Virus record (IMG/VR): IMGVR_UViG_3300001680_000219
Coordinates: 1-41,099 of that record
DNA: 41,099 bases
From: a virus
Reading direction: 5' to 3' (one strand)
Numbering within the stretch: the first letter of the stretch is position 1; each line of letters opens with the position of its first letter. Under the pieces are notes generated by a model, which searched no databases, was not told the DNA's origin, and saw only the letters and a list, made by a program, of their open reading frames with translations. Positions 5,248 through 33,400 of the stretch are shown here, in pieces. A program made the translations under genes and the position numbers.

Positions 5248-5979
5248 TTATGTTATATTATCTGGAAGTTGACTATCGATAGCGTCCTGATCCGCCTCAG
5301 TTCTATCAGCAATAGAAACAAAGTTTTCCAATAAATCTAAAGGATCTGGCTCATCAGGTGCTGTTGGATAACCAATCAAATTGTTTGGAATATCTGCAGT
5401 AAGAGTAGGTAGTTCACGTAGAGTTGATCTAAAATCTAACCATTCTTGTTTTAATTCTGCTGGCATGTCATCTGCGATTTTACTATCAGTTGGCCATAAT
5501 AATCCATCTCTAATACCACGTACAGACTCGTCTGTTCTATCTAGTGTGTCACCAGTACAATATACTAATGGTGCCCATGTTTCTGTGTTTAAATCATAAC
5601 CGTACATAGCTGCAGGTTTATCAAAAATCTCTCTGATATCAGTAGGATCTGCGATAACTTTATTAGGAATAGAGTCAACACCGTTATTAACTTCTAGATG
5701 TCTCATTTCTCCAATTCCACCCCATAAAAGACCAACTAAAAGTGCGTTTTCGTCAGACTTCGTTGAATCTATTTCAACTACAGTGTAGTTTAACGGAGTT
5801 GGTCTAGCGGGAACTTCATTCTCTGGGAATGAATCTACAACCCTAGTATCATCTTCGTTGTTAATAACCCAACATACTAATTTATCAGGTCCGTTGAATT
5901 CACAAGTTGACGTTTTGCCCATAGAATCGTCAGTTCCGTATCTCTCATTAGGCATTTTATATGTTATTGTTCTCATCAT
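5248..5979 (-). CDS. Tail-fibre assembly chaperone-like protein (Phage_tail_APC type), copy B
   Basis: A 243-residue protein with a C-terminal segment matching the phage tail assembly chaperone family (Pfam Phage_tail_APC): RGIRDGLLWPTDSK at about residues 151-165, then WLDFRSTLRELP at about 180-191 and a Pro-rich stretch (YPTAPDEPDP). The N-terminus (MPNERYGTDDSMGK) is nearly identical to the 266-residue protein at 6990-7790, so the two are paralogues; the central parts differ. Each follows a Gly/Cys-rich adhesin gene, here with a 10-base gap, which suits a dedicated chaperone or cap for that adhesin. Two ATGs occur in tandem; GGAGA is 3 bases before the first and 6 before the second, so translation may start at 5976. 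It is the last gene before the terminator. Confidence 0.7.
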   Translation of the reverse strand: MMRTITYKMPNERYGTDDSMGKTSTCEFNGPDKLVCWVINNEDDTRVVDSFPENEVPARPTPLNYTVVEIDSTKSDENALLVGLLWGGIGEMRHLEVNNGVDSIPNKVIADPTDIREIFDKPAAMYGYDLNTETWAPLVYCTGDTLDRTDESVRGIRDGLLWPTDSKIADDMPAELKQEWLDFRSTLRELPTLTADIPNNLIGYPTAPDEPDPLDLLENFVSIADRTEADQDAIDSQLPDNIT

Positions 5980-5989
5980 TGTTCTCCTA

Positions 5990-6964
5990 TTAAGAATACG
6001 TTACTTTAACTAATCCACCTGCACCGAATCCACCCCAACAAGCATTACCTGACGCAGTCGCATGACCTTGTCCACCACCACCTGGGAATAATGAATGTCC
6101 ACCTCGACAACCACTACATTGAGTACAAGCATGTCCACCGTTTGGTGCACCAGATACAGAAAACGGTCCATTCGGTCCACCAGAGTATCCATAAACGTCT
6201 GAACAACAATCGTATTTTCTAGTATAAGAACCAGAACTTCCTTTGAAGCAAACATCAGCACCATAAGATTGGGTGTTTACAGTTTGTGTACCCCAACTGC
6301 TGTCGTAGTTAGATCTACAACATTGTGTACTCTGATGACAATCGTAACAATTACTCATCTTATCCCAAGGAGTCGATCCACCTAGACCACCCACAGCACA
6401 GAAGTTAGAAAGACCAGAACCAGTTATCCATGAAGTACAACCTTGTCTTGTTGCCATACAACAATGACAACAGCATGAACATTGTGAAGTACCAGCTGCA
6501 CATAACGTATAAGAAGAAGAACCTGGAACAAAATCACCATTTTCTTCATATATCGTTTTAGAACTGTAACCACCACCTTGTCCACCAACAGTAATTTCAT
6601 AGTCACCACCAGATGATCCACCAGGACCACCACCACCAAGGATTTCAAATTTAATACTCTTAACGTTTGCTGGAACAGTCCAGTTTAAGCAACAACCGCC
6701 GTTAGTAACAGACCAATGGTTGGTGTTTTGTATTTGAAAGTCGTGAGTACCAATAGAACCACCACCGGCGGCTGCTAGAGCATCAATTCCGATTTGAGTA
6801 GTGTCTTCTAAACAAGTAACTTGTCCAGTCTGTACCGCTTCAATTTCAGATTGTACTGTGCACACATCACGTAGAGTTTCAAAAGTAGTGTTAGCAAGGT
6901 ATTCCAACGTGGCATCCACGTCCTTTGCCATTTGGTTCATTTTACCAAGTGTTAAAATATCCAT
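5990..6964 (-). CDS. Gly/Cys-rich tail adhesin (receptor-binding fibre tip), copy B
   Basis: A 324-residue protein. Residues 1-70 (starting MDILTLGKMNQMAKD) form a helical attachment segment with an AAAGGGS linker. The rest is glycine-rich with GGGGPGGSSGG-type runs and an unusually high number of cysteines, including CSCCCHCC around 6465-6495, and ends GGFGAGGLVKVTYS, a common ending of phage glycine-rich tip proteins. The composition recalls polyglycine-helix adhesins such as gp38 of T-even-like phages, but the Cys content is not typical of those. The Shine-Dalgarno AGGAT precedes the ATG. The gene is paralogous to 7809-8789, with an exact 38-base match at the 5' end and other long matches. 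Receptor binding is inferred from position and composition. Confidence 0.7.
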   Translation of the reverse strand: MDILTLGKMNQMAKDVDATLEYLANTTFETLRDVCTVQSEIEAVQTGQVTCLEDTTQIGIDALAAAGGGSIGTHDFQIQNTNHWSVTNGGCCLNWTVPANVKSIKFEILGGGGPGGSSGGDYEITVGGQGGGYSSKTIYEENGDFVPGSSSYTLCAAGTSQCSCCCHCCMATRQGCTSWITGSGLSNFCAVGGLGGSTPWDKMSNCYDCHQSTQCCRSNYDSSWGTQTVNTQSYGADVCFKGSSGSYTRKYDCCSDVYGYSGGPNGPFSVSGAPNGGHACTQCSGCRGGHSLFPGGGGQGHATASGNACWGGFGAGGLVKVTYS

Positions 6965-6989
6965 TTTTTATATCCTATTAATAATTAAT

Positions 6990-7790
6990 TTACTCTACAC
7001 CAGACGGTAGTTGAGCAACAACTTCTTTGTCCTTTGCAGTTCGTTCTGCTATTTTGATTACCTTAATGTGCGCAGAGGCTTCTTCATCAAGTGCGTCGTT
7101 TACGGGTTCTCCTGGCGCCTTAGGAAAAACGATTAAATCTACAGGAACTCCTGCCCAATCGTCTGGTAAATTTCTTAAGTTTGCTCTATAATCGACCCAA
7201 CCTTGTTTAATTGCTGTCGGCATATCTTCCGAAGTAGATGCATCAGATGCTTCTAATTGGTCGTTCCTTGCAGATCTAATAAACTCAATGTCCCAATTAC
7301 TACGACCATATACATTACCGTCAATATCATCACCAGGCAAACCTGTTTCGTATGATAATGCACCCCAACCTGTGTCTGGGTTATAACCATGTGTAACTGA
7401 GTTTTGATCATACACTTCACTAGGATAAGTAGTATCAAATACCGTGTTATTTCTTGCCGATGCTGGTCCAACTGCTACTTCATACACTTTAATGAAACCG
7501 AAAGGAGTTGCCCCGTCTTCGTCAGTTGGTCCGATTAAACCGCAACGAATGCAATTTTCGTCAGATTCTTCGCAATCCAAAACTAATTCGTAAAAATCAA
7601 GTGGAGTTGGTTGACCGCATAAGTCTGCCATGTCCTGCACTTCCTTAACCATGTTTGTTTCTTTGTCCATGAATAACATTAGACTAGCAGGACCGTTATA
7701 TTCCTGCGTAGATTCTTTACCCATAGAGTCGTCTGTACCGTATCTCTCATTAGGAATTTTATATGTAACTGTTTTTGTAATATTTGCCAT
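6990..7790 (-). CDS. Tail-fibre assembly chaperone-like protein (Phage_tail_APC type), copy A
   Basis: A 266-residue paralogue of the protein at 5248-5979. Seen: the shared N-terminus (IPNERYGTDDSMGKES), a central region of unknown fold containing a Cys pair (CEESDENCIRC), and the C-terminal chaperone-like segment: RSARNDQLEASD at about residues 171-182, WVDYRANLRNLP at about 197-208, then FPKAPGEP. These match the pattern I know for Phage_tail_APC proteins, usually encoded directly after fibre genes and needed for tip folding or assembly. It follows the adhesin at 7809-8789 with an 18-base gap and has a good Shine-Dalgarno (GGAGAA, 5 bases). Whether it stays in the virion as a cap is not visible from sequence. 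Confidence 0.72.
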   Translation of the reverse strand: MANITKTVTYKIPNERYGTDDSMGKESTQEYNGPASLMLFMDKETNMVKEVQDMADLCGQPTPLDFYELVLDCEESDENCIRCGLIGPTDEDGATPFGFIKVYEVAVGPASARNNTVFDTTYPSEVYDQNSVTHGYNPDTGWGALSYETGLPGDDIDGNVYGRSNWDIEFIRSARNDQLEASDASTSEDMPTAIKQGWVDYRANLRNLPDDWAGVPVDLIVFPKAPGEPVNDALDEEASAHIKVIKIAERTAKDKEVVAQLPSGVE

Positions 7791-7808
7791 TTCTATTCTC
7801 CTAATATA

Positions 7809-8789
7809 TTATTGGTATGAAACTTTAACAAGTCCGCCAGCACCAAAGCCACCCCAACAACCATTACCACCGTCATAACCACCGCCAGCACCGCCACCGC
7901 CAGGGAAGTAAGAATGACCACGACAACAACCCATACCAGTAGTGGTACATTCGTTTGTATCCCTACCGTTCGATTGAGATCCGGAGAATGGTCCTGTCGG
8001 TCCACCTCTAGTTCCACTAATTTCATTACAGCAACTGTAACCCTTTTGAACCATTCCTGTAGTTCCTGTGAAACCGTAGTCTGCACCGAAGAAACCTGGA
8101 GTACATGATTGGCATTGTCCCCAACCACCTGATACTTGGTTACCAACAACACATTGCGCACCAATAGAACAGTCGTAACAACTTGATTTTTTATCCCAAG
8201 CTGTAAAACCACCTTCTCCTCCGGTCGCACAGAAGTTTGATAGTCCATTACCAGTTACCCATGAAGTACAACCTGTTCTACATGGTTGACAATGCGCACA
8301 GCATGAACATTGTGAAGTACCACCAGCACATAAAGTAAAATTAGAAGTACCAGCAGTAAAATCAACGCCTTCCTCTAACGTCCTAGCTGCATAGTTACCA
8401 CCCCAACCACCAGAAGGAATATCGTAGTCACGACCAGATGATCCACCTGGACCGCCGCCACCTAGAACTTCGAATTTAATAGACTTGATTCCCTCAGGGG
8501 CTGTCCATAATAAACAACAACCACCATTAGTAACAGACCAATGGTTGGTGTTTAAAATCATAAATTCTTTAAATGGTTTCGATCCACCACCTGCAGCAGC
8601 AAGTGCGTCGATACCTATATCAACCTCATCTTGCAAACAAGTAACTTGTCCAGTCTGAGTAGCAATAACTTCTGCCTGCACATCGCAAACGTCTTTTAAC
8701 GTTTCGAAAGTAGTGTTGGCTAGATACTCCATTGTTTGGTCTAAATCCTTAGCCATTTGGTTCATTTTACCAAGTGTTAAAATATCCAT
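7809..8789 (-). CDS. Gly/Cys-rich tail adhesin (receptor-binding fibre tip), copy A
   Basis: A 326-residue protein built like the 324-residue copy: an N-terminal helical segment (MDILTLGKMNQMAKD), an AAAGGGS linker at about residue 65, then a glycine-rich domain with GGGGPGGSSG and many Cys (SQCSCCAHCQPC, SSCYDC, SCCNE, GCCRGH), ending GGFGAGGLVKVSYQ. Conserved blocks alternate with variable loops, for example GWGQCQSCTPGFFG is present here only. This suits a scaffold with swappable binding loops. It follows its own late promoter and an AGAAGGAA Shine-Dalgarno, so it is the first gene of the adhesin block. The cysteines could form disulfides outside the cell or bind metal; sequence alone does not decide. 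Confidence 0.7.
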   Translation of the reverse strand: MDILTLGKMNQMAKDLDQTMEYLANTTFETLKDVCDVQAEVIATQTGQVTCLQDEVDIGIDALAAAGGGSKPFKEFMILNTNHWSVTNGGCCLLWTAPEGIKSIKFEVLGGGGPGGSSGRDYDIPSGGWGGNYAARTLEEGVDFTAGTSNFTLCAGGTSQCSCCAHCQPCRTGCTSWVTGNGLSNFCATGGEGGFTAWDKKSSCYDCSIGAQCVVGNQVSGGWGQCQSCTPGFFGADYGFTGTTGMVQKGYSCCNEISGTRGGPTGPFSGSQSNGRDTNECTTTGMGCCRGHSYFPGGGGAGGGYDGGNGCWGGFGAGGLVKVSYQ

Positions 8790-8835: not shown

Positions 8836-11800
8836 TTATACGTCCCAAATGTCTTTAAGAGTAATAACACCTCTCATATCATTTGTCGCACCGTCGTATC
8901 TCGAAGACTCATAAACTAATGAGTCTGGAGAACCATTAACCCATGACTGAGTAGTAAATTCCCAAGAATCGTTTAATGAGTGTCCTTCATAATTACCCCA
9001 CTGTACTAAAACTCCGTTCTTAAAGTTTGTTCCGGCAGAGGTGTTAGCACTGAATGGCGAATCGTCAGTATTACCTTTAGGTCCGTATAATGCATATGCA
9101 TTGCCTGCTAGGTTAATAGATCCACCAGGATATGTTACTGGTCCTGCAACAATAATAGTTGGAGTCTTGTATGCACTACCTGGATTATTAATAACAATAT
9201 TAGAAACGTTACCAGCACCACCTAACGATACAGTGCCAGTAGCACCATAGCCGGTAGGCTCTGGGTGACTATCGATAACAATAACTCTAGTCTGTCCATT
9301 AATATAGTCTGCCCAATCTTCTACGATAGTAGCACCACCAAGACCATTATTTAGTCCAACCGTTCCTACATATCCGATACCAACAGTATTTGTTGAATCT
9401 GTACCAACTGTGCCACCACCGTCTGTTACAACAACCATAGGTTCGTCGTAACCAGCACCACGTGTGGTAAATTCAATTGCAGAAATAACATTATTGATGT
9501 CAGTACTAACTGCACCACCAGTTCCTGTGTTTGTTGGGTCGTTAATAATAAGTTCAACGTCTGCATAACCAGAACCAGAACGAACAACTTTAACTTCTTT
9601 AATTTCTCCGACTGTAACTTCAACGAACCATTCTGCTCCTGAATTAGTACAAGCAGTAGGGTCTGTAATTGTAGCATCAGAACAGAATGCAGGAACTGCA
9701 AACGATGTGATTTCGGCACTTAAAGAAGCATTAGAACCATAATTACGACCGATTTCTGCCCCTAAATCATCGTAAATTGGGAAACCTGTAGGATCGAATA
9801 CTATAATTTTAGTTTCTTGCGAATAACCAGTACCTGTGTTGTCTACAGTAATTACTGCTACAGAACGATCTAATACTGGAGTTGCGTATGCACCCTCACC
9901 TGGACCAGAAACGTCAATAATTTTAACAGTATCGCCTTCGACGTAATCCTTTCCTGGACGATCTACTGCAATATCAATAATATTACCAGAAGCGTTTACC
10001 GTAGCAAGACCACGCAAACCACCACCCGTTTCAGTAACCATGTCTACAAATACTGTGTTTTCACGAACCCATAAAGTTGCACCAGCACCTGAATTTTGAT
10101 CTGTGATAACATACTTATCTGTTAGTTCTGTGTCTTGTGTAACTGTATATGAGAACACAGCATTTTGAGGGATATCTCCAGAATCAAATACACCATCTTC
10201 ATGAGTAACCGTATGAGCACTAATGTCAAGGTTAGTAAATTGAACCGTATCTCCGACGTTAGCAGAGATAATCGATGGAACAAAAGCGTTATTTTGAATG
10301 GCAACGGATACTGTTTTAGATGTTGTATCTGTGTATCCAGTGCCTTGATTTGATAATGAAATAGAATTAATACCACCATTAGCAAAATAAAGTTGAACTA
10401 CAGCAGCAACTGATTCATTACCACCAGTTATTGTTAATGTATCAGAAACCGCATATGCACTTCCTGGATTAGTAATTATAATTTTATCTAACGTATCATC
10501 TTCGTTTAATACTGCATAACCTGCAAGACTAACACCAGTAGAAGAGGTCATTCCTATTGAAATTTGAGGGTTGACTTGATATCCATCAGAATTCTTTCCG
10601 TGGTCATGTGGACCAACCTGACTAACGAAGTAAAACTGCTCAGAGAATGAATTCCATCCAATATCAATATCGTGACTATGTCCACTTTCGACCGTTGTAG
10701 CTGTAACAGCTGTTCCGGATTTAATAGTATTAACATCTGCTTGAGATATTTGTAGGTTATGAGTATGTCCATTACCTCCGTCTTGTACAGTGATATTCCA
10801 AAAACCTACATAACCTGCACCAGCAGAAATGACTTTTACATAGTCGACCATACCGTTTCTAAAGGTAGGAGCAGCAATTGCTTTAGTTTCAGTAGAACCT
10901 GCAACATCAACTGCGCCTAAGTCGAACGTTCTTGCTAATGTATTGCTTGAGTATTTAGTACCATTTTCTGTGATAGTAACGTCTGATACTCCATCGTCAT
11001 ACACTGCGTTAAAGATAGCACCTGTGCCGATAGTTGTATTTGAGTCGATAGTATAACCGTAAGTGTCAACAACACCAGAATCGTCTGTAATAGAAACTTT
11101 GTAAGTTAAACCGTCTGATAGTTCCGAGTCGTAAGATTCACCAGCAATTGCTGTTTCATATGAACGTTGCAAATCGTCTAATAATGAGACATTTGCATCT
11201 GTATATGTTTCGCAAAGTATTGGAGTTTCAAATGCACCACCGTCTGAATCTAATCCAGAAGCACCGTCTGTGGCAACTACACCCCAACCAGTAATTGACG
11301 ATATTCCGTCGTGACAATATGAAGTTCCAGGAGAGAACATAATAGTATCATAATCAATAGCATAGTTACCAGAAACTCCTTTATTGTAGACATCTCCAGA
11401 CAAGTCTGTAATTTTAACCATATCTCCTGTATCAATACCGTCAAACAACAATGCGTTCGAGTTACCTCGTCTAATTACTAATTCTGGATTATCAACATCC
11501 GCAATAGAAGTATTATTAAGAATTGTTAAATCCTCTGCTGCAGAACCGTCTACTTCATGACCAGTTGCTCTGAAAGAAGCAACACCAGTATTACCGATGT
11601 CTTTAAATATGCTATATGCTTTAATTTTTTCTACAGAAGTTGAACCAGCTGCATCATTTTCTAATTTCAAGTGATGAACAAACGGATATGGTTCTCCACT
11701 AATTTGCATAGCCTCACCGAAAGAAGAAATACCACCTTTGGAGTTGTATGCAATATGGTGAGTTTTATTAGGACCTTCTTCTGCGAAAGAAATTTGTCCA

Positions 11801-12405
11801 TCAGCAGTATATTTGTAATCTGTGAAACCAATTTCACGAGTCATTGTTACTTCAGCAACTAATAAGTTTGTTTGGTGTACAGAATAACCAGAGTCTGCCG
11901 CACCAGAAGTGTACTGAGCAAGGTTAAGTAACATGTCATCAAGTGCCTGTTGAATAATGGCATCCTGTGCTTGTACGTGTATTGTGTAGTCAGTTTGTAA
12001 CTGACCCATTGTAGTCGTTACGTTTGTTTCTAAAAGGTTAGAAGCTGTTGATAATGTACTACCAGCATCATTTGCCCAAGGGACAAACACTGAATTAACA
12101 AAACCAGCAACTTCGTCATTCATGTAAGTTTCAACTGCATTCATAGCAGTATTAGTCTTGACGACTACTTCATTTTTAAATGTGTTTTGTTGGTTTTCTA
12201 GTGGTGAAGTTACATTTGCATTTAACCATGATTTCATATTGCCCGCCATAGCGTTCAATTTGGTTGGAATCATCACCGCTGGGGTGTTGGTATAAATCTC
12301 TACTTCTTCAACGAATTCCGTAATATCAATACTCTCGAAAGTGATATCTGGTATATCGTTAAACTGGTCAACTTGCGTTGAAATGGTTGATAGTGTGACA
12401 GACAT
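8836..12405 (-). CDS. Large fibre-like virion protein with GxGY beta-repeats and an HxH module
   Basis: A 1189-residue protein. Residues 1-190 are alpha-helical and likely coiled-coil (many Asn/Thr/Val, few Gly), suited to anchoring. The middle and C-terminal parts consist of repeated beta units with GTGYT, GSGYA, GAGYD and GSAYK turns, each followed by a short strand. Also seen: an HxH module at about residues 540-600 (GHTHN, GHSHD, GPHDHG); a cupredoxin-like segment at about 705-765 (VGDTVQFTNLD, HTVTHEDGVFDSG) lacking the usual Cys-x2-His half; and one Cys-G-W module (CSDATITDPTACTNSGAEW) at about 905-925. The last 100 residues are Gly/Asn/Trp-rich. Two tandem late promoters precede the gene, with a GGAGATAAC Shine-Dalgarno. 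A tail fibre or baseplate-associated role is inferred from position and repeats; no T4 orthologue is recognised. Confidence 0.65.
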   Translation of the reverse strand: MSVTLSTISTQVDQFNDIPDITFESIDITEFVEEVEIYTNTPAVMIPTKLNAMAGNMKSWLNANVTSPLENQQNTFKNEVVVKTNTAMNAVETYMNDEVAGFVNSVFVPWANDAGSTLSTASNLLETNVTTTMGQLQTDYTIHVQAQDAIIQQALDDMLLNLAQYTSGAADSGYSVHQTNLLVAEVTMTREIGFTDYKYTADGQISFAEEGPNKTHHIAYNSKGGISSFGEAMQISGEPYPFVHHLKLENDAAGSTSVEKIKAYSIFKDIGNTGVASFRATGHEVDGSAAEDLTILNNTSIADVDNPELVIRRGNSNALLFDGIDTGDMVKITDLSGDVYNKGVSGNYAIDYDTIMFSPGTSYCHDGISSITGWGVVATDGASGLDSDGGAFETPILCETYTDANVSLLDDLQRSYETAIAGESYDSELSDGLTYKVSITDDSGVVDTYGYTIDSNTTIGTGAIFNAVYDDGVSDVTITENGTKYSSNTLARTFDLGAVDVAGSTETKAIAAPTFRNGMVDYVKVISAGAGYVGFWNITVQDGGNGHTHNLQISQADVNTIKSGTAVTATTVESGHSHDIDIGWNSFSEQFYFVSQVGPHDHGKNSDGYQVNPQISIGMTSSTGVSLAGYAVLNEDDTLDKIIITNPGSAYAVSDTLTITGGNESVAAVVQLYFANGGINSISLSNQGTGYTDTTSKTVSVAIQNNAFVPSIISANVGDTVQFTNLDISAHTVTHEDGVFDSGDIPQNAVFSYTVTQDTELTDKYVITDQNSGAGATLWVRENTVFVDMVTETGGGLRGLATVNASGNIIDIAVDRPGKDYVEGDTVKIIDVSGPGEGAYATPVLDRSVAVITVDNTGTGYSQETKIIVFDPTGFPIYDDLGAEIGRNYGSNASLSAEITSFAVPAFCSDATITDPTACTNSGAEWFVEVTVGEIKEVKVVRSGSGYADVELIINDPTNTGTGGAVSTDINNVISAIEFTTRGAGYDEPMVVVTDGGGTVGTDSTNTVGIGYVGTVGLNNGLGGATIVEDWADYINGQTRVIVIDSHPEPTGYGATGTVSLGGAGNVSNIVINNPGSAYKTPTIIVAGPVTYPGGSINLAGNAYALYGPKGNTDDSPFSANTSAGTNFKNGVLVQWGNYEGHSLNDSWEFTTQSWVNGSPDSLVYESSRYDGATNDMRGVITLKDIWDV
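10120..10290 (-). other. Cupredoxin-like segment without the C-terminal copper ligands
   Basis: Residues of about 705-765 of the 1189-aa protein read FVPSIISANVGDTVQFTNLD then HTVTHEDGVFDSGDIPQNAV, a close match to the first half of blue-copper proteins. The following strand (DKYVITDQNSG) has no Cys-x2-His, so a type-1 copper site is unlikely. Confidence 0.55.
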
Positions 12406-12506: not shown

Positions 12507-13877
12507 CTATACTACAGTTATTGCACCAACTTCAGTAAACGTTTGACCGTCTAAATTAGTTACCCTAACATCATAAATTCCTGATGTTGAGTATGTCATT
12601 ACTAAATCAATTTGGTTAGCAGATTGCCAGTTTGCGGCAATCACTTCAACGACATTATCAGTTCCTGTGTCTAATATTTCAACAGTAGTGTCTCCATTGA
12701 CAAATCCAGCACCAGATAAAGAGTATACATTGTAATCACCATTTACTGTTGTGATGTATAAAGTATCACTTACTACAAATGGGTCAGCAAATGCAGAAGT
12801 ATCCATATCTGCATTTGTTACACGCAACTCTTGCTCACCTAACGGTGTGTCTGGGTGAATTTCAAAACGTACCTTGTATGGTAAGTTTAGACTTTCTTGA
12901 TTTGTTTGCTCTACACCACCTAAAGTAATTGTGTATGTTAAATCTATACCATCACCAACTATCTCAACCCACTCACCGTCTATTTCATCAAGAATGGTCG
13001 AATCCCATGTTCCTCTAGGAGATTCACAATCCACTTGATTGTCAACTGTAATATCAGCAATACTAGTAGTACAATGTTCTAAATCTTCAAGAATCCAAGT
13101 TCCTCTAGGTCCTTCACAAACTTCTTGTGAAGTTTGAATTCCATCTGAACAGTATCCAGGTAAACCATCAGTCCAAACGTTTCCTGCAGAAGTCCAAGTA
13201 TTACCAGCATTAGTGTATACGTTTATAGCAGTCCAAGTATTAGATGGTGTCCACGTAGCAAGATTAATTGCACAATCTGTTGCGTTCTCAGAAACAGCGT
13301 CAGAACAAGTACCAGGAGTTTCATAACATTCACCAGAAGTGAGTGATGTACCGTTTGAACAAGAACCACCTGAGTCTATACAAGCAGTTTCGTTATCGTT
13401 GTAAGCTGGGTCAGTACAAGTACCGGCTGCAACACAAGTATATTCAAACGAATATGTTAGATCAGAACAAGTACCAGCACCCAAACAACCATACTCAGAA
13501 GTATATAATGGGTCAGAACAAGAACCTGGAGTTTCTACACTCCACCAACCGAATACTGTTTCACAATCGACTTGAGTAGAATAATCTGTATTAGTACAAT
13601 GTGCGGCAACTGTCGCATACCACAATCCTACAACATTTGTACAAGTTAATTCAATGCTATATGTGTCTGTACCGAAATTAGTCGTACAGTTTGGAACTAT
13701 TTCAGTAACACCACGTCTTCCTGCCATCTTATCTGTAGATGATAGTGATATAGGTGGGTTAAGAATATCATTACCACGTCTATTAACGTCGTAGTAATCT
13801 TCAATGATTGACTCACCGAATGATTCCATAGTTCTCATACCAGCAATAGGTTGTCCAACATAGTCAGCATTTTCCAT
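12507..13877 (-). CDS. Virion protein with nine tandem Cys-Gly-Trp modules and C-terminal beta domains
   Basis: A 456-residue protein of no recognised family. Residues 1-55 form a leader rich in charged residues (MESFGESIIEDYYDVNRRG). Residues of about 60-290 hold nine copies of a roughly 20-residue module with consensus C-S-D-x-x-Y-x(4-6)-C-x(4)-G-T/x-W, for example HCTNTDYSTQVDCETVFGWW and CSDPLYTSEYGC. The C-terminal 160 residues look like two beta-sandwich (IPT/TIG-like) domains (VEIVGDGIDLTYTITLGG, YNVYSLSGAGFVNGDTTVEI). It starts 2 bases after the stop of the 2181-aa gene with a weak Shine-Dalgarno, so translation is probably coupled. Between two fibre-like giants, a structural linker or attachment role is inferred. 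Paired cysteines in each module may form disulfides after release. Confidence 0.55.
   Translation of the reverse strand: MENADYVGQPIAGMRTMESFGESIIEDYYDVNRRGNDILNPPISLSSTDKMAGRRGVTEIVPNCTTNFGTDTYSIELTCTNVVGLWYATVAAHCTNTDYSTQVDCETVFGWWSVETPGSCSDPLYTSEYGCLGAGTCSDLTYSFEYTCVAAGTCTDPAYNDNETACIDSGGSCSNGTSLTSGECYETPGTCSDAVSENATDCAINLATWTPSNTWTAINVYTNAGNTWTSAGNVWTDGLPGYCSDGIQTSQEVCEGPRGTWILEDLEHCTTSIADITVDNQVDCESPRGTWDSTILDEIDGEWVEIVGDGIDLTYTITLGGVEQTNQESLNLPYKVRFEIHPDTPLGEQELRVTNADMDTSAFADPFVVSDTLYITTVNGDYNVYSLSGAGFVNGDTTVEILDTGTDNVVEVIAANWQSANQIDLVMTYSTSGIYDVRVTNLDGQTFTEVGAITVV
13005..13700 (-). repeat. Nine-copy Cys-Gly-Trp protein repeat array
   Basis: Codes for nine roughly 20-residue modules of the 456-aa protein, each with two Cys and most with a closing G-T/x-W. 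The same module occurs singly in six other virion proteins of the window, including gp8. Confidence 0.75.
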
Positions 13878-13879
13878 AT

Positions 13880-16800
13880 CTAAATGATTTGCTTTCCATC
13901 TTTCTTCACCACTAATAAATACTCATCGGATGAAAGGTTAGGAATTGTTTTAACTGAAATGTCATCCCAATATGTAAATCCGTTTCCAGTAGTAGAAAGT
14001 GTTAAGTAAGCAGTACCAGCAATAGGAGCAGTAATTACAAAGTCTCTAGTTTCGTCATAAACTCCACTAGTCATAGTATCTTCGACAATCATTGAACCAT
14101 ACGTATCACTATCTGGAGTTGGACCTAATTTTAGAATTGAATCTGTAGGTCTATCAACTTTAAATGAAATCTTGTAATTCATACCTGCTTCCATTTCGAA
14201 AGTAATATGAGCAATACCTCTATTATTAATACCAGTACCAGAAGTGTAAATCTGCTGAGTAATTTGATCTACATACGCAACACCGTCTTGTTGAGGAGCA
14301 AATGTCCAATTTTCAATGATTTCTCTAATAGAAACGTTATCAATAGAACCCTCAAAACCAACATTAGAATAGTATGGATTATTTTCTTCAGGTCTATTGT
14401 CGTCTACGTCACCAATAAAGTGAACTTTTTGGTCATAAGATCCAGCACGAACGTGGAATACTTTATCACCGTCTTGATTAAGTCCATCAGTATTGGCATC
14501 AATAACAGGAATAGCTTCTTCAACGAGTTTAATTGAATTAATAGCACCAGAACCATTTAAGTTAATTGTAATTGTATTAGATGCTGTACCAATAAAGTCT
14601 AAATTATGAATACCACTTGAATTTGAACTCACTACAACAGTTCCGTTAATAACAACTTCTACAGTAGGTGTATTAATAATAGTAGAAATTAAAGTCAACT
14701 CATCGTGTCCTTCTGGATTCGATTGCTCTGAGATATAGAATTGGTCTATTCCGTTAATATTTGCATATTTAATGGTAAATTCATGTGTATATGTTTCTGC
14801 GTGATATCCATCAGTTTGTGCAAAAGTCAGAGACCTTACGCTGTCGAACGATATCCAGTCTGCTTGAGACTGAGTCATTTGGAACGTATGAGAGTGAGTT
14901 CCTGTTGGACCTGGACCTACTTGGAAGTTAAGGATATTATCTTCAATTAAATCTAAATCTAAACTAACTTCATACTTGACTCCTCCGACCAGTGCATTTG
15001 ATAAAGTGTAAACCGCAGTTGCGTCAGAAGATGAATTAAAGTTTAATGTGTCTTCTATAATACTAACCGTGTCGTCACCCATAACCCAATTAACTAAAAC
15101 TGGATCTGTAATATCAAAATTCCAGTTAGAAATTAAGTTACTAGGATTAGTTCCTAAAGCAACTCGCATACGTCCAGTCATACCATTATTGTCGTTATCA
15201 ACATCACCTAATGAATATTTAACTTCGTAAAGTTTACCTGTATCAATAGAAACTGTTTGAGAAACTTCTGTAGCAGAAGAAATTGACCCATCAAGGTATG
15301 CTTTCGCACCATCAGAAGTCCAACCCTCACCCATAGACCAAGCATTTTGGCCAGTAACACGTTCTTTAATAGAAACGTTGTCAATCTTACCTTGTCCTGC
15401 ATTAGTCAAACGTAGTAACGTTGTATTCGTAGGGGCAATTAGAGTTTCAGTATAATGACCAACTTGTGTATTGGCAGTACCTTGAACTGTAGTATCACCA
15501 ATTAAATTAGCAGTAATATTTCCAATCTCTGCACCATATTGGTCTTTGAAAGATTCAATAATATCGTACTGAACTTCATATGTAACACCATCTTCAATTG
15601 TACCCGTCACAAGTTGCTCAATATAAGCAGCATCTGTATTCGTAGTAAATGCACTACCACCAGAAACCGACCATGAACCTGTTTCAGTCCATACAACTTC
15701 TTTGAAAGTAACATTTGATAATTCAATATCAGAACGTTTGTCGATGTCAACACTAAAGTAAACCTTAGCAAGTCCACTAACGTCGTTAGTCACTAAGAAT
15801 TGCTCAGAACCTATTCCAGGAATCATTGATAAAGGTTCGATATATTGAATAGTACCTAATTCAATATTCATTGCTTGTATCACAGGAATTGCTCCCGCAC
15901 CTGTTGCTGTTAATTGGTTGCCAGTATTAAGAATATCTGCTTGAGTTCCTTTTACTGGGAATCCGTTTTCTGGTTCAGGTTGTACTTGGAAGTAATCAGG
16001 TCCAGTTCCATTATCAACAAGGATTTTATCCCTGATATGTAATGGAGTGTACATGTTATCTTGTCCGTGATGGAAGTAAACAACAATATCATCTCCGGCA
16101 TTAACAACAGGTAAATCAAGGATATTAAATTGACCCATCATAGAAGCATGCCAAGCACACTGATAATACATTACGTCTGGTGATACTTCAGGAACTGTCC
16201 AAGTCATAGTGTCATATTTTGTAACACCATCATCATCGACACCCCATAAATCTAATATATCACCCTCAGTTTGATCACCAAGTCCTTCTTCAGCACGTGA
16301 GTTCTGAACACCTAATAGGTATTCACCGAACCAAGCACCTGGAGTGAAATGTGAACCATCATCGGTTGTAACATAAATTGGGTGACCAGCAGAGTTAATC
16401 TTAAATGTGTATGTACCACCACGGTATAAATTAATTGTTCTGTTTGTTCCTTCAATCATTCCTGCACCATTAACCTCTCCAGGTGGAACGAATGGACCAA
16501 GTCCAGAAACACCATCGGAACCCGTAAGTCCGAAGTCTTCTGGAACTTTCCATGTAAATTCTTTTGCGAAGTTACCTACCCATTGGGAAGTTCTCCATTG
16601 AGCAAGTCCAGGATCTTCAGTAGGGTTTAATGCAAGACAAAGTGTTTCATCGTCTTCACCATTATAGTACCAACCAGAAACGTCTAATTCTTCACACCAA
16701 CCGTTTAATCCCATACAATGAGGGAATGCTTGATCTGATACCCAAGTTCCAGGCTCTTCTTCGTTATTTACGAAATCGTTATGGTCACCAGAACTAATAA

Positions 16801-19800
16801 TCAATCCATGGTCTGCTCTCATTGAAATACATTGTAAACCTGAATTGTCAATAAATCCTGCTTCTACAAGGTTGTCCCAACCACCGCCTGGAATTGCTTT
16901 AATACCAGCAGCGTGCATATACATAGGTTGTGGATTACCTGAAATTGGATCCGTTTCAATAATATGACCAGACGGACTCCATGCATTATTAATAAACTTA
17001 TACGTACCACCACGGTATAAATCAAAACCACCGTTAGTACCGTCATTACCACCAAATGATGCTTCATCTGCCTCTTCAATTTGATAAGGAGCATAAACGT
17101 CTGATGTATGATCCCACCAAGACCAATACCAAGGTGAATCTTGAGCACCCTCAACAGTAGTAATTGTTGAGTCTGCCCATGTAATTGTAGTTTGTGTATC
17201 AACCGTAATTTCCATATTATCGGTTGGACCATAACCATCACCAATAGCAATAACCGTATGGTCTAACATCTCACCAGGAAGTTCTGATGGAGTATATGGT
17301 TGTGCACCTGAAGGAAGTTGTACAACATCACCAACGGATAATCCGTGGTTTAATGATTTAACTGTACGAGGTCTAGACCACAGTAACTGAATACCAGTTC
17401 CTGCAACAGTGTCCCCTACATGGTTTGTAATATCTCTTTCTACCTGTAAACGGTAAGAAGCAAGGTCTGCCACAACTGTGTACTCTTCGATAACATCGTT
17501 AGTAGTAGGTGTAGTTCCTTGTGAATTTTGTAATGGGTAAACAACAACTTCTGTTAATGCGAAATGATCAGCATCGATAATGTAGTCAATATAATAGTTA
17601 GTATTACCATGATGAATGCCATTGTAAACGTTTTCGAAATGTACTCTGTCTCCAGGGTATAATCCGTGAGCATCAGACTCAATACCTTTTTCTTTCTTCA
17701 CATAACCGTTAATATCAGTAAACGGTGTTGCAATTGATGTTGGATTTAAATCGTCACCACCAATAGCAAAATTATACCAACCAATGTTAAATTGGTCTGA
17801 ACCTGGATACCAAACTCTATCAAAGTCGTGAATATGTTGGTCAATTTCAATAATCAAGTAAACGTCATTTATAGGATCTAAACAACCAAATTCTACTGTA
17901 TGGAAATGTTGTGGATCTGAAGTACCAAAATCAGAAGTTCTAATCATAGTAGTACCACTGGTTGCACTCCAAGTACCGTCAGCGTCTTGAGTAGTACCGA
18001 TTAATGGACTTGCTTTCAAGGTAGCCTCATCAATTTCAGAAACTAACAATTCGTGATAGTGACCGAAGTTTACTAATTCAATTTTTGTTCCACCCGAAAT
18101 TTCAATATACTCATCCATGCCGTGAGTATGACTACCTGTCATACCAACTAATATCATTCCACCAGCACCGTCATTTGCAGAGGCACTCCAGTCGAATGTC
18201 GCAACGTGTGTATGTCCTGAATCTTCAGACGTAGTAATTAATGTAGCACTTGATGCCAAAATTTGTACATATTCAGCAGGAGTGATTGTAGCAGTATGGG
18301 TATGTCCAATTTGATAAACATCGTTAAAGAATACGTCAATTCTTTCAGAACCTTTAGCAACACCAGTTACGATATATTCTTCCCACTTTCTTTCACCAAC
18401 ACCAACAGAACCATCTCCAGAACCATAACCTGAACCACCATCAACTAAAGTGATAGAATAAATATAACCATCAATCTCACCTGTGGCAGTAGCCGAAACT
18501 GTTGGGTTGCCACCAATAAATGTAATAACTGGAGGATTATGATAACCAGTACCCAGATCGGTAATAGTAATTGTGTCTATTTCTCCTTCTGCTGTAATTG
18601 TAGCAGTTGCAACAGCTTGTGTTGTCAATTGTGGAGCACGCCAGATCGATCCAGTAACTCCGTCACCAGCAACACAAGAAATTTCGTCTGTGTATTGTGG
18701 ATCGTCACAATAAGCATCCGGACCGAATTGAGGTACGTCTGGAGCAGAAATTTGTATAGTTGGTACTGATTGATAACCAGCTCCAACATCTGTTAATTCT
18801 ATTACTGTCAGAGAACCGTTAAATTCTAATGTACCTGTTGCGCCAGAACCTCCACCACCAGTTATGTACATTTGAGGTTTAGAACTATAATCACTACCTG
18901 GACCTATCAGTTGGATATTATCCACAGAACCCGCAACAACTGTAGCAGTAGCAGTAGCAAACACAGTGTCTACTTCTACACCACCATCAAATGTTACCAA
19001 CATAGGAACACCAGCATCTGGGTTAGTTTCAATTTCACCCGATTGGAATGTAACTAAGTTGTTAATAGATAAATCATGGTATAACGATTCAACCGCAGTT
19101 TGATCACCTGCACCACCTAAAGAAGTACATGTATTGAGCAATACTAAGTTAATAAAGTATGAATTTGCTAAAGATGGTAGGTCTACCATAGAACCATAAT
19201 TAATAGGCATCTTAATAGTATCGCCAGGATTCAATCCGTGGCCAACAGCATAAACAAACCTATGATTAGTAGTAGTTGATAAACGTCCTTCCTCTAATGG
19301 ATGGAATGTGCAATGGAAGTAAACGTCGTGGTATCCGTCAACAACCCACTCCCATGTATCTCCTGGATTCATATCCGGAGAAGCAAATGAAATATTATCG
19401 TCCGAAACTGCGTTGTGTACTAAATAGTTACCAATTGGATTTGTAAATATTAATGTATCGCCTTCACGTGCTTCTACATGGTAAGGAATAATAGAGTGAA
19501 TTTGAGTATTTGGGTCTACTAAATTTCCTGCATCCCATACTGCATTAGTTGAATAACATTCTTCTTGGTCTACAGCACCGTTTCCTGGGTATCCGTCACC
19601 GTCGTCATCACAGTAAAAACTTGAAGTTCCTGGATCATAATTCCATACGGCATCGTCAGCACTACATGCTGCTTCCATTGCAGGCAAGGCAAGTTGATAG
19701 TCTACTGAATTGTCCCATGCAACAACAACGCCATCACAAGTAGGCAATACTAAGTTATCGTCTTCGACAACTGAAATAACAATTTGTTGAGGGTCTGGAC

Positions 19801-20425
19801 CACCACCAGCTTCAGAGAATACTGTATCGTCAGTAGATAGTTGATCAACCATATTCTCACCACCACTAGGTAAATCCCAATTTACTGGGTTTACCGTAAG
19901 GTCGTATGAGAATTTATATTGTGTGTTTGGTTTTAATTGAGTTTCAAACCAAGAAATAGCAGTCTGCAATCCATCTGTATAAGCGCGGAGGATTTGAGTT
20001 CCTTCAGTAGTCAATACGTCAAATTGGTATGCAATACCATTTGCCCAAGGACGTGCTAAATCAACTGGAACGTCAAAACCAGAATTCTTTACTAATTCAA
20101 TTTCAAATGCATCAGAACTAAAAGACGAGTTCTGTACTAAGTTAGGTGTGTTGTATGTAACGTCAAAGCCACCATTAGTGACTAATTCAATAGGGTTTAC
20201 AAACTGAGCAGATCTAGTAGCAACATTAAGAATAAATTCTTTATATTCAGGCATATGTTCTAAGTTTTCCATCACTTCTAGTGATTTCAACATAAGAGCC
20301 ATATCCTTAACCAATAGGTCCGGAGATGATAATTTAATGTTTAAAGAATCTAAAAAATCAGATTTCTGTTGCTCAATAGTATTAAGTTCAGTTAATGTGA
20401 ACTTATGTCCAGTATAATGTGCCAT
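13880..20425 (-). CDS. Giant fibre-like virion protein with cupredoxin, HxH and carbohydrate-binding-like domains
   Basis: 2181 residues. N-terminal 85 residues are helical; then CBM-like openings (VTNGGFDV, LVKNSGFDVP) lead jelly-roll domains. Cys-G-W modules lie at about 252-298 and 570-595. Cupredoxin-like domain A is at about 308-380 (GDTLIFTN, LVHNAV, HCTFHP). GxGY beta-repeats are at about 480-680, and HxH modules at about 705-870 (GHTHT, GHTHV, GSHTHG, GHYHE). A degenerate cupredoxin-like start (LYRGGTYKFINNAW) is at about 1133. Cupredoxin-like domain C is at about 1328-1445, with GHPIYV and YYQCAWHASMMG. From 1500 on, several jelly-roll/CBM-like domains follow and another HxH module at about 1840-1910. 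No T4 orthologue is recognised. The gene follows a 67-aa gene with a 19-base gap. A long, host-contacting fibre is the likeliest role, inferred from size, domain types and position. Confidence 0.65.
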   Translation of the reverse strand: MAHYTGHKFTLTELNTIEQQKSDFLDSLNIKLSSPDLLVKDMALMLKSLEVMENLEHMPEYKEFILNVATRSAQFVNPIELVTNGGFDVTYNTPNLVQNSSFSSDAFEIELVKNSGFDVPVDLARPWANGIAYQFDVLTTEGTQILRAYTDGLQTAISWFETQLKPNTQYKFSYDLTVNPVNWDLPSGGENMVDQLSTDDTVFSEAGGGPDPQQIVISVVEDDNLVLPTCDGVVVAWDNSVDYQLALPAMEAACSADDAVWNYDPGTSSFYCDDDGDGYPGNGAVDQEECYSTNAVWDAGNLVDPNTQIHSIIPYHVEAREGDTLIFTNPIGNYLVHNAVSDDNISFASPDMNPGDTWEWVVDGYHDVYFHCTFHPLEEGRLSTTTNHRFVYAVGHGLNPGDTIKMPINYGSMVDLPSLANSYFINLVLLNTCTSLGGAGDQTAVESLYHDLSINNLVTFQSGEIETNPDAGVPMLVTFDGGVEVDTVFATATATVVAGSVDNIQLIGPGSDYSSKPQMYITGGGGSGATGTLEFNGSLTVIELTDVGAGYQSVPTIQISAPDVPQFGPDAYCDDPQYTDEISCVAGDGVTGSIWRAPQLTTQAVATATITAEGEIDTITITDLGTGYHNPPVITFIGGNPTVSATATGEIDGYIYSITLVDGGSGYGSGDGSVGVGERKWEEYIVTGVAKGSERIDVFFNDVYQIGHTHTATITPAEYVQILASSATLITTSEDSGHTHVATFDWSASANDGAGGMILVGMTGSHTHGMDEYIEISGGTKIELVNFGHYHELLVSEIDEATLKASPLIGTTQDADGTWSATSGTTMIRTSDFGTSDPQHFHTVEFGCLDPINDVYLIIEIDQHIHDFDRVWYPGSDQFNIGWYNFAIGGDDLNPTSIATPFTDINGYVKKEKGIESDAHGLYPGDRVHFENVYNGIHHGNTNYYIDYIIDADHFALTEVVVYPLQNSQGTTPTTNDVIEEYTVVADLASYRLQVERDITNHVGDTVAGTGIQLLWSRPRTVKSLNHGLSVGDVVQLPSGAQPYTPSELPGEMLDHTVIAIGDGYGPTDNMEITVDTQTTITWADSTITTVEGAQDSPWYWSWWDHTSDVYAPYQIEEADEASFGGNDGTNGGFDLYRGGTYKFINNAWSPSGHIIETDPISGNPQPMYMHAAGIKAIPGGGWDNLVEAGFIDNSGLQCISMRADHGLIISSGDHNDFVNNEEEPGTWVSDQAFPHCMGLNGWCEELDVSGWYYNGEDDETLCLALNPTEDPGLAQWRTSQWVGNFAKEFTWKVPEDFGLTGSDGVSGLGPFVPPGEVNGAGMIEGTNRTINLYRGGTYTFKINSAGHPIYVTTDDGSHFTPGAWFGEYLLGVQNSRAEEGLGDQTEGDILDLWGVDDDGVTKYDTMTWTVPEVSPDVMYYQCAWHASMMGQFNILDLPVVNAGDDIVVYFHHGQDNMYTPLHIRDKILVDNGTGPDYFQVQPEPENGFPVKGTQADILNTGNQLTATGAGAIPVIQAMNIELGTIQYIEPLSMIPGIGSEQFLVTNDVSGLAKVYFSVDIDKRSDIELSNVTFKEVVWTETGSWSVSGGSAFTTNTDAAYIEQLVTGTIEDGVTYEVQYDIIESFKDQYGAEIGNITANLIGDTTVQGTANTQVGHYTETLIAPTNTTLLRLTNAGQGKIDNVSIKERVTGQNAWSMGEGWTSDGAKAYLDGSISSATEVSQTVSIDTGKLYEVKYSLGDVDNDNNGMTGRMRVALGTNPSNLISNWNFDITDPVLVNWVMGDDTVSIIEDTLNFNSSSDATAVYTLSNALVGGVKYEVSLDLDLIEDNILNFQVGPGPTGTHSHTFQMTQSQADWISFDSVRSLTFAQTDGYHAETYTHEFTIKYANINGIDQFYISEQSNPEGHDELTLISTIINTPTVEVVINGTVVVSSNSSGIHNLDFIGTASNTITINLNGSGAINSIKLVEEAIPVIDANTDGLNQDGDKVFHVRAGSYDQKVHFIGDVDDNRPEENNPYYSNVGFEGSIDNVSIREIIENWTFAPQQDGVAYVDQITQQIYTSGTGINNRGIAHITFEMEAGMNYKISFKVDRPTDSILKLGPTPDSDTYGSMIVEDTMTSGVYDETRDFVITAPIAGTAYLTLSTTGNGFTYWDDISVKTIPNLSSDEYLLVVKKDGKQII
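14695..14900 (-). other. HxH module, type 2, in the 2181-aa protein
   Basis: Codes for HSHTFQMTQSQ, then a YHAETYTHEFTIKY segment and SNPEGHDEL. The 2784-aa protein has a close relative at 30310-30520 (GHTFSLTGSQ, HAEFYTHLFTV, TNPEGHDTL), so the module is shared between two virion proteins. Confidence 0.7.
16105..16445 (-). other. Cupredoxin-like domain with a complete type-1 copper ligand pattern
   Basis: Residues of about 1328-1445 of the 2181-aa protein contain LYRGGTYTFKINSAGHPIYV (N-terminal His ligand in GHPIYV) and, about 90 residues later, VMYYQCAWHASMMGQFNI with Cys-x2-His and a Met 3-4 residues on. This is the ligand order of blue-copper proteins. Confidence 0.7.
18110..18320 (-). 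other. HxH module, type 2, in the 2181-aa protein (second region)
   Basis: Codes for GHTHTATITPAEYVQ, SGHTHVATFDWS and GSHTHGMD, three HxH motifs spaced by about 25-30 residues. The 1189-aa protein carries the same arrangement at 10590-10780. Confidence 0.7.
19288..19500 (-). other. Cupredoxin-like domain with His, Cys, His but no obvious axial Met
   Basis: Residues of about 308-380 of the 2181-aa protein read EGDTLIFTNPIGNYLVHNAV, then NPGDTWEWVVDGYHDVYFHC and TFHPLEEGRL. Ligands His, Cys and His of a blue-copper site are present; the position of the Met ligand holds Leu/Glu. Confidence 0.7.
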
Positions 20426-30400: not shown

Positions 30401-33400
30401 AATTCAGCATGAGTTGTATCAGTCTGTAAAGCAGTAGTTGTCTGTCCAGGATTATCTTTCAAGAATTGTACTTGAGAACCCGTCAGTGAGAATGTATGAC
30501 CGTGAGTAGCTCCATTAACTGGATTAGCAAGTGCATTAAAGTGAGCAGAGTTTCCGTCGAAGTTTTCACTTAATACGTATAAATGCCCAGAATCACCATT
30601 CCAATTTGTTCCCCAATCACCGAAGATATATTTACCTTGTAATGATGCAAGAGCACCACGATATACAAAACCACCAAGAATTGAAATACCAGTACCATGT
30701 GAGTATTCGTGTACAGGACGTTTCAAACTAAGTAAGAAATCTAATGTACTTGCATGTCCTAAATCAATTGCTATTTGGTCAACGATTTCTGGATCAGTTT
30801 CGTAGTCGTGATAACCCTCAATAACTCTCCAACCGTAGTTTCCGCCTTTCTCTACAATATTAATTTCTTCAAACTTGTCTTGTCCAACATCAGCAACCCA
30901 TAATTTTCCATCTTCTGCGAACGAGAATCTCCAAGGATTTCTGAAACCCATTGCCCATATTTCAGGTCTATATGGTGCTTCTTCTGCTTGTCCTTCTTTG
31001 TAAAGTGAATTTACGAAAGGATTATCGGTAGGAATATTATAAGTTTCACAATCCACTGAGCACACTTCAACCAAAGCAATATCTGCAGCAAGTGGCACGA
31101 GTATCATATCGTGAATATAATCTGGGTAAGAAGAAAATGCGGAATAATCCCATTCATCACGGTCATATAACCAAGCAAGAACATCCTCGATATTGTTAAA
31201 ACCCTTACGGTTCATGTCCATTCTAGGTAATATAGTTCCAGCAGGATATTCTACATCCTCCATTAACCACTCGTGAATCCATTGGTTATAATCCAAACTA
31301 GGTTCGCCGGCGATCGCCTCAGCAACAGTAGAGTAAGTTCCGTCATACACATATGCCATTGCCAAAAGTAAACCACTAACGGCTAGTCCTACATCATTAC
31401 TAATAATGTTGTCTGGTCCATATGTTGCAGGGGTGTTAAGTGGAGGAACGTTTGATTCTTCTGGAGTTACATTAACTCTTAAAATATTACCTAATAAGTT
31501 TGATGGATTTTGAGCATTACCATATGGACCATGTCCACCATGACCAGTTGCCCATGAAGTATCGCCAGCAGAACCACCATCACCTAATCCAATGTATAAC
31601 ATACCATCTGGACCAAATGCTAATTCACCACCATTGTGGTTAAAATCAGGTTGAGGAACAGTCATCAAAATTCGTTCTGTTGAAATATTAGCAGTTAGTT
31701 TTCCAATATCTGCTGTGAATTCAGAAATTACAGACGATGAAAGTGGGAATCCCCAAGCACCTGTACCACCACCTTGTTCAGTCATATAGTAAACGTAGAA
31801 TTTACCATTGTTAGAATAGTCTGGGTGGAATGCTAAACCTAATACACCACGTTCGTCATAGTTCATAAATGAACCTAGACCAATATCATGTTGTAATGTT
31901 TCTAAGTCCATAAACAATGTCTGTGTACCAGTATTCTCATTCATTAAGAAAATGTAACCAGACATATCAATAATAGCAACTGTATCTGCTTGAACTGATG
32001 ATGGGAATGCTTCTATCGTAGCAATATCTGTACCAACACCTAATTTCTCTACACCGATTAAGTCGCCACTATCTCCAACACCTGGAACTTCTTGAACAAA
32101 GTTAGATGAGTATAATTCTACAAAGTCTACGTTAGGATTTAAATCTGCTGGCCATTGCTGATTGTGTTGTAATGTAATATCAGGGTTGTTTAAGAAACCA
32201 CCAACATATTCATCTGAAACTTCAAAGAATACATTTTGTGGCCATTGATTTCCTAAGAAATCCATACCACCCATAATAGTTCCATCAACAGGTAAATCTG
32301 GTCGATAGTTGAAACATAACCAAGTCACAATTGGAGTATATACAAAACCGTGTGTCATATCAACACCACGCCAATCTTGTTTGGTTTCCCAATCAGAATC
32401 GTAAGTTACTGAGTATTCGTGATAGTGACCAGATGTTATCTCGCCTCGGATATTAGTAATAGTTCCGCCTTTAGTAACACCATATTCGTCTAACTGAACT
32501 TGCCCGTCATCTAAATAACCAATGCAATCGTATAATGTTACTGATGAAATATCACCATCAATTAGTTGTCTTGCTTGTTCTCTTGTTAATGGATCCGCAG
32601 TACGACCTCTTTGATAATCAACAACTTGGTCTTTAACAAAGTAAGAAGTGTGACCTTTCATCGGTGGTAAAGACTCAAGGGTGAAATAACCCCAAGAATG
32701 TCCAACAGCATTACAAGATGCTTCTGACGATAAGCAATAACTCATCGTTCCGGCGGCCCATTCATTGTTTGAGAAAGAAGCAGCTACAACTGGGACTATA
32801 TGTTGCCATATAAATTCGTCACTAGTAGCATCTAAGGAAGTAGTGCCTTGCACCAAACCATAGTACCAAGTATCAAAATCGTTATTATCTGTATGAGTAG
32901 TGCCGTTTCTATCCATATCCCATCTTGGAGAAATAACTCCAGCAGGATATTCAACATCTTCGTTCAACCAATCATGTAATGCGGGAACATAATGCATGCC
33001 CATACCAAATGCTAACCAACCATCTAAATCGTCTTGATAAGAAATACCGTCATGGAGTAGACCGTGGTCCACTACTGCAATTGTATAAAGAGTTTCTGAA
33101 AGTGAATTTAGTAAAATCTGAGATAATACGCCTACAATAGCAGGGTTCCATGTACTACCAGAATCATAAGTTACAAGGTCTGCGTTATTTACTATATCAC
33201 CATCATGAGCAACTAATACACCATTAGTACCCTGAACCCACGTATCACTCATTCCTTCGCAAACTGTTTGTGACATATTAGACATATTAGAACACATTGG
33301 TGGCATCCAGAACATTGGATTGCCTCCATATGCAGCTATACAGTCTGTTGGATTATCATATGCAGAATTGAAACATTCTCCATATCCGTTATAGCGTGGG

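Follow-up and report, generated by a model that had tools for sequence, protein, structure and literature searches.

Type-1 cupredoxins (PF00127, PF13473) carry their metal-binding residues in the order His...Cys-x2-His-x2-Met; in classical type-1 sites the first His is followed by Asn or Ser, and a C-x2-H-x2-M loop has the length found in amicyanin. Phage tail fibres of the T4 gp37 type also contain metal-binding residues, in their case paired HxH histidines around iron (PMC11705849). Here we describe a domain, denoted domain C, that lies in a tail-module protein like the gp37-type site, and that differs from it in having a Cys/His/His/Met site and a different fold. We consider domain C to be, with fair probability, a diverged member of the cupredoxin family with a type-1-like site, which would serve as a structural or adhesion module binding one copper ion.

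The source of the domain is a 41-kb IMG/VR virus record from an uncultured marine phage, and the whole stretch of 41,099 nucleotides analysed is called the window. Domain C is carried by a tail-module (fibre/adhesin-like) protein of 2181 aa, encoded by an ORF on the minus strand (13880..20425) that also contains domains A and B. This gene is flanked by a DUF4815/phrog_358 protein and by tail-fibre assembly genes, and the T4-like tail module of the window comprises, besides the DUF4815 protein and the tail-fibre assembly genes, a gp6-like wedge subunit and baseplate proteins resembling gp7, gp8 and, weakly, gp10. The wedge subunit shows ∼34-37% identity to its counterparts in Methylophilales phage Melnitz and in Pelagibacter, Desulfovibrio and Synechococcus phages. 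As a whole, the 2181-aa protein has no relatives among 50,697 phage records, where domain C alone finds matches. The earlier description of the protein as tail fibre-like is reasonable, given that the gene sits in a tail/fibre module and that relatives of domain C are annotated as fibre or connector proteins, which falls short of proof.

Further minus-strand genes of the window are worth noting. Two adjacent Nol-like carbamoyltransferase genes (phrog_1601; 452-2242 and 2239-4062) form an apparently duplicated pair, and the gene pair phrog_9740 plus phrog_4205 is present twice at 5248-8789, a tandem duplication of a likely fibre/assembly pair, phrog_9740 having a weak match to tail-fibre assembly. 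A 456-aa protein (12507-13877) contains 18 Cys in short repeated units and has no Pfam matches above threshold.

Domain C covers aa 1320-1441 (122 aa; 16103..16468, minus strand), and the span that the earlier note assigned to it, 16105-16445, translates to aa 1327-1441. The putative first copper ligand is His1348 (16382..16384, minus strand), directly followed by Pro1349, within the motif GHPIYV at aa 1347-1352. The other three putative ligands lie in the last loop (16139..16159, minus strand), where YYQCAWHASMMG, aa 1420-1431, holds Cys1423 (codon 16157-16159), His1426 (16148-16150) and Met1429 (16139-16141). Hence the blue-copper order of His followed by Cys, His and Met that had been claimed is confirmed in the translation, with the spacing C-x2-H-x2-M, and domain C has the type-1 residues in the right order and spacing.

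The window copy is peculiar at its start. Compared with close relatives, 45 bp (15 aa) are absent in frame at 16462..16463 (minus strand), and the segment that is gone, YHVTHDGGLYRFDKS or a similar sequence in the relatives that cover the region, lies just before the domain and forms its first strand in the family alignment. The gap is clean. An identical contig (L001) represents the same genome, and in two near-identical ones (L002 and L003) the sequence opens very close to 16462/16463 with an undeleted end; the absence may be real or an effect of assembly. Domain C of the window clade also contains an insertion of ∼30 residues.

Using domain C of the window as tblastn query, 164 phage records were matched, and a consensus-like query built from relatives matched 340, nearly all of them Synechococcus or Prochlorococcus phages. 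In these 340 records the carriers are mostly gp9, the baseplate wedge-tail fibre connector, further carriers being proximal or other tail-fibre proteins and a subtilisin-like protein; gene annotations include gp9 connector, proximal tail fibre and tail fibre-like. At least 571 relatives were found in IMG/VR, and 16 occur in contigs of bacterial genomes or MAGs, a part of these contigs perhaps being of phage origin. Contigs of uncultured phages include close relatives with 68-100% identity over domain C. The gp9 connectors and tail fibre-like proteins of cyanophages such as P-SSM2, S-RIM2 and S-SSM5 carry domain C with the four residues in place, in a shorter version that lacks the insertion and is ∼28-33% identical to the window domain, within proteins that are otherwise unrelated. 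We found no discussion of domain C in the literature searched, and as far as that literature shows the domain has not previously been described. The earlier note remarked that copper-binding domains on phage fibres are rarely discussed; domain C itself is common, not rare, among marine phages.

The four columns are covered in 129 distinct copies, and 124 of these have the full set of ligands. The five exceptions keep three ligands (one copy), two (one copy) or one (three copies), so that four of the five lose two or three ligands together. Because the search patterns included the first His and the Cys, these two columns were partly selected; in copies found outside the relevant pattern, the His is present in 96 of 97 and the Cys in 28 of 31. 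Neither the second His nor the Met was part of any search pattern, and they are kept in 126/131 and 128/131 copies, respectively. Moreover, the four ligands are invariant in an alignment of ten divergent members, and in an alignment of 66 sequences, most of them 30-47% identical to the window domain, only 6 of 106 columns are invariant, four of which are the ligands. One could suppose that the motif arose by chance in a repetitive protein with no relation to cupredoxins, and the window domain alone indeed has no Pfam match above cut-off; this supposition is practically negligible and was rejected, since hundreds of phages conserve the four residues although overall identity is low. Domain C with its putative ligands is real and conserved and not a product of chance.

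The relation to blue copper proteins becomes visible at the level of the family. Taken alone, domain C of the window gave no Pfam match above the curated cut-offs, including those of PF00127 and PF13473, and no match worth keeping in a single-sequence search of the PDB. A profile of ten sequences matched 43 distinct PDB sequences at E ≤ 10; by our count, type-1 copper proteins make up 35 of them, each match being weak by itself. The best were pseudoazurin (E 0.0069), rusticyanin and plastocyanin, with E-values of 0.007-0.015, and azurin, amicyanin, auracyanin and Cu nitrite reductase were also matched. Aligned with rusticyanin and plastocyanin, the profile has its GHP opposite GHS or GHN and its Cys, His and Met opposite theirs, so the ligand His and the loop are in register. 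The ending YYxC..H..M.G.I.I is likewise shared with type-1 cupredoxins. What supports homology to known members is the concentration of weak matches on one superfamily, as single E-values are weak. With a deeper profile, Cu nitrite reductase ranked first (E 0.0024), and the list was more mixed and weaker. After removal of the Cys-His-Met end, the profile found no cupredoxin in the PDB beyond one laccase (E 0.8), thus the evidence for homology rests mainly on the His and the C-terminal loop. In hhalign comparisons, four cupredoxins scored above fibronectin and titin controls in most pairs, with low probability for domain C.

Among Pfam families the best match is PF25489 (At5g54830-like), a family whose name comes from a plant protein of the DOMON/cytochrome b561 type; its matches include 31 of 66 members (E ≤ 0.01; best E 2.3e-13), and the window domain reaches 15.5 bits, below the cut-off of 27 bits. 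No description of the PF25489 domain was found in the literature searched. PF00127 is matched at E ≤ 0.01 by 4 of 66 members, the window copy not being among them. Compared with type-1 cupredoxins, domain C thus shares ligand order and loop length but differs in its location in a giant phage protein, in the insertion, in the absence of the first strand and of a PF00127 match from the window copy, and in the residue following the first His, which is Pro in 65 of 66 sequences. Asn or Ser at this second-shell position is common in type-1 sites and not strictly defining.

For structure prediction, aa 1075-1441 (367 residues) were modelled by AF2 with 85 sequences. Domain C is predicted as a beta-rich unit with pLDDT of ∼80-97, and the upstream part of the model is of low confidence. 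The His is located directly before a strand, the Cys ends the next-to-last strand, and the second His and the Met fall in the loop that leads into the last strand; the predicted order of strands and the positions of the ligands along them fit cupredoxins. Searching BFVD with Foldseek, ∼111-113 columns were superposed at 1.6-2.1 Å on predicted proteins of P-SSM2, P-SSM5 and other phages. Metagenomic genomes of Pithovirus and Marseillevirus were also among the hits, with 'beta-sandwich proteins' for which a similar fold is predicted.

Against the PDB, the top 50 matches of the 367-residue model contained no named cupredoxin; they were weak matches to beta-sandwiches, Ig-like and others, had poor TM-scores and included two entries of factor VIII, whose A domains are of cupredoxin type, poorly superposed. 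This uninformative outcome probably reflects the low confidence of more than half of the model, the large insertion and the missing first strand. As no cupredoxin came near the top, the claim of the fold depends mainly on sequence, and we regard a cupredoxin fold of domain C as probable. The original proposal of a cupredoxin domain with a full type-1 ligand set is thus upheld in part: sequence supports it well, through ligand conservation and the PDB profile matches, and a fold match was not obtained from Foldseek against the PDB. The missing fold match, and the Pro in place of the second-shell Asn or Ser beside the first His, would also be compatible with a beta-sandwich having the same residues and a purely structural role, whose native metal is not copper (e.g. 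zinc or iron), whose site takes up whatever metal is at hand or is empty in virions. We hold this to be unlikely, because the set and order of the ligands are those of type-1 copper sites and the proteins matched by the profile are copper proteins. Hence copper is the likely metal of domain C, as judged from its residues and relatives, with a structural or adhesion role suggested for the domain.

Domain C is not the only stretch of this kind. Domain A (aa 295-395; 19241..19543, minus strand) is a second cupredoxin-like domain, with His337, Cys372 and His375 and with Glu378 taking the place of the axial Met. By itself it matched 9cck (Cu nitrite reductase, E 6e-4) and 5fc9 (blue copper protein, E 1e-3) in the PDB, and a profile of domain A matched 9cck at E 3.6e-5. 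Relative to these two proteins (5fc9 being a blue type-1 copper protein), the His, Cys and His of domain A are in register; all copies have the Glu at the axial position, and 5fc9 also lacks Met there, with Arg in the alignment. No relatives of domain A were found in phage records, and 37 distinct copies were found in uncultured relatives; an alignment of 26 sequences shows no variation at the columns of His, Cys, His and Glu. A fold search with an AF2 model of domain A, which returned cupins and others, was set aside, the model having been made from 7 sequences and having a pLDDT of 52. Domain B, from about aa 1122 (16500..17060, minus strand), partly resembles domain C (LYRGGTYKF..SGH); it has no Cys-x2-His-x2-Met and its AF2 model is of low confidence. 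A third cupredoxin-like stretch, at aa 694-756 of an adjoining protein of 1189 aa (10138..10326, minus strand), keeps one His and is without the Cys/His/Met end in all relatives seen.

Three minus-strand proteins of the window are rich in HxH motifs, located in His-rich repeats of the GHTH type, with 23 in 27487-35841, 7 in 13880-20425 and 3 in 8836-12405 (2.8, 1.4 and 0.3, respectively, expected from shuffles). The GHTH repeat of the 2181-aa protein has no Pfam, PDB or phage relatives. Iron-binding HxH motifs of phage fibres have been discussed for a role in metal disguise (PMC11705849), and with its 7 motifs against 1.4 expected the present protein could be imagined to act similarly, copper on the fibre serving as a lure or contact for a metal (metallophore) receptor in the outer membrane of the host. 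We think this quite improbable, as the family occurs in gp9 connectors as well as in fibres and is not limited to tips.

A glucose/sorbosone dehydrogenase-family (GSDH) beta-propeller region is present at 30532..31851 (minus strand), within the gp7-like baseplate wedge protein (2784 aa; 27487-35841, minus strand), with a PF07995 match of E 2.1e-29; an insertion of well over 100 residues is specific to the window. GSDH and domain C accompany domain A in each of the 15 records that have it, one of which is this genome, and 9 other records with domain C, including three cyanophage isolates, hold neither GSDH nor domain A. Throughout the clade the GSDH region preserves NHNGG, G-x-RNP, E-I/V-N and GGNYGW, as judged against a soluble glucose dehydrogenase sequence, and the part from RNP to GGNYGW aligns to soluble glucose dehydrogenase. 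From this co-occurrence and these motifs one may construct a sugar-oxidising unit on the virion, in which a PQQ-type propeller would pass electrons to the two copper domains of the fibre protein, one of them with an axial Glu, perhaps oxidising surface sugars of the host at attachment. Such a role is very doubtful. The 15 records form one clade, so the co-occurrence is an association and may reflect plain ancestry rather than function; the best PDB matches of the region are to the non-enzymatic Hedgehog-interacting protein, and domain C is widespread without GSDH. Only four named phage records match GSDH, all labelled Acinetobacter phage with a gene annotated as aldose sugar dehydrogenase that is probably bacterial; among named phage records no convincing phage isolate carries a GSDH. 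The propeller is a possible partner of the copper-like domains.

Thus, domain C is most likely a metal-stapled structural or adhesion module rather than an electron carrier. In the model we propose, domain C would be one of at least two cupredoxin-like modules that this T4-like marine phage has in its giant tail-module protein, and one copper ion would tie the strand of His1348 to the last loop with its Cys, His and Met. The metal would stiffen the beta-sandwich, a repeated unit that could provide structure or adhesion close to the baseplate and to where the fibres attach, and the many cyanophage gp9 and fibre proteins carrying the domain would use it in the same way. A metal-stabilised structural or adhesion role is the simplest account, because the domain sits in connectors and fibres across many phages.

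If copper is bound, hundreds of abundant marine phages would have copper-loaded tail proteins, which would bear on the entry of metals into virions and on marine copper ligands, as well as on the stabilisation of phage fibres or host recognition. Domain A, with its invariant Glu in place of the axial Met, would likewise be an unusual natural copper site, if it binds copper. Cultured cyanophages that have the domain in gp9 make these possibilities directly testable.
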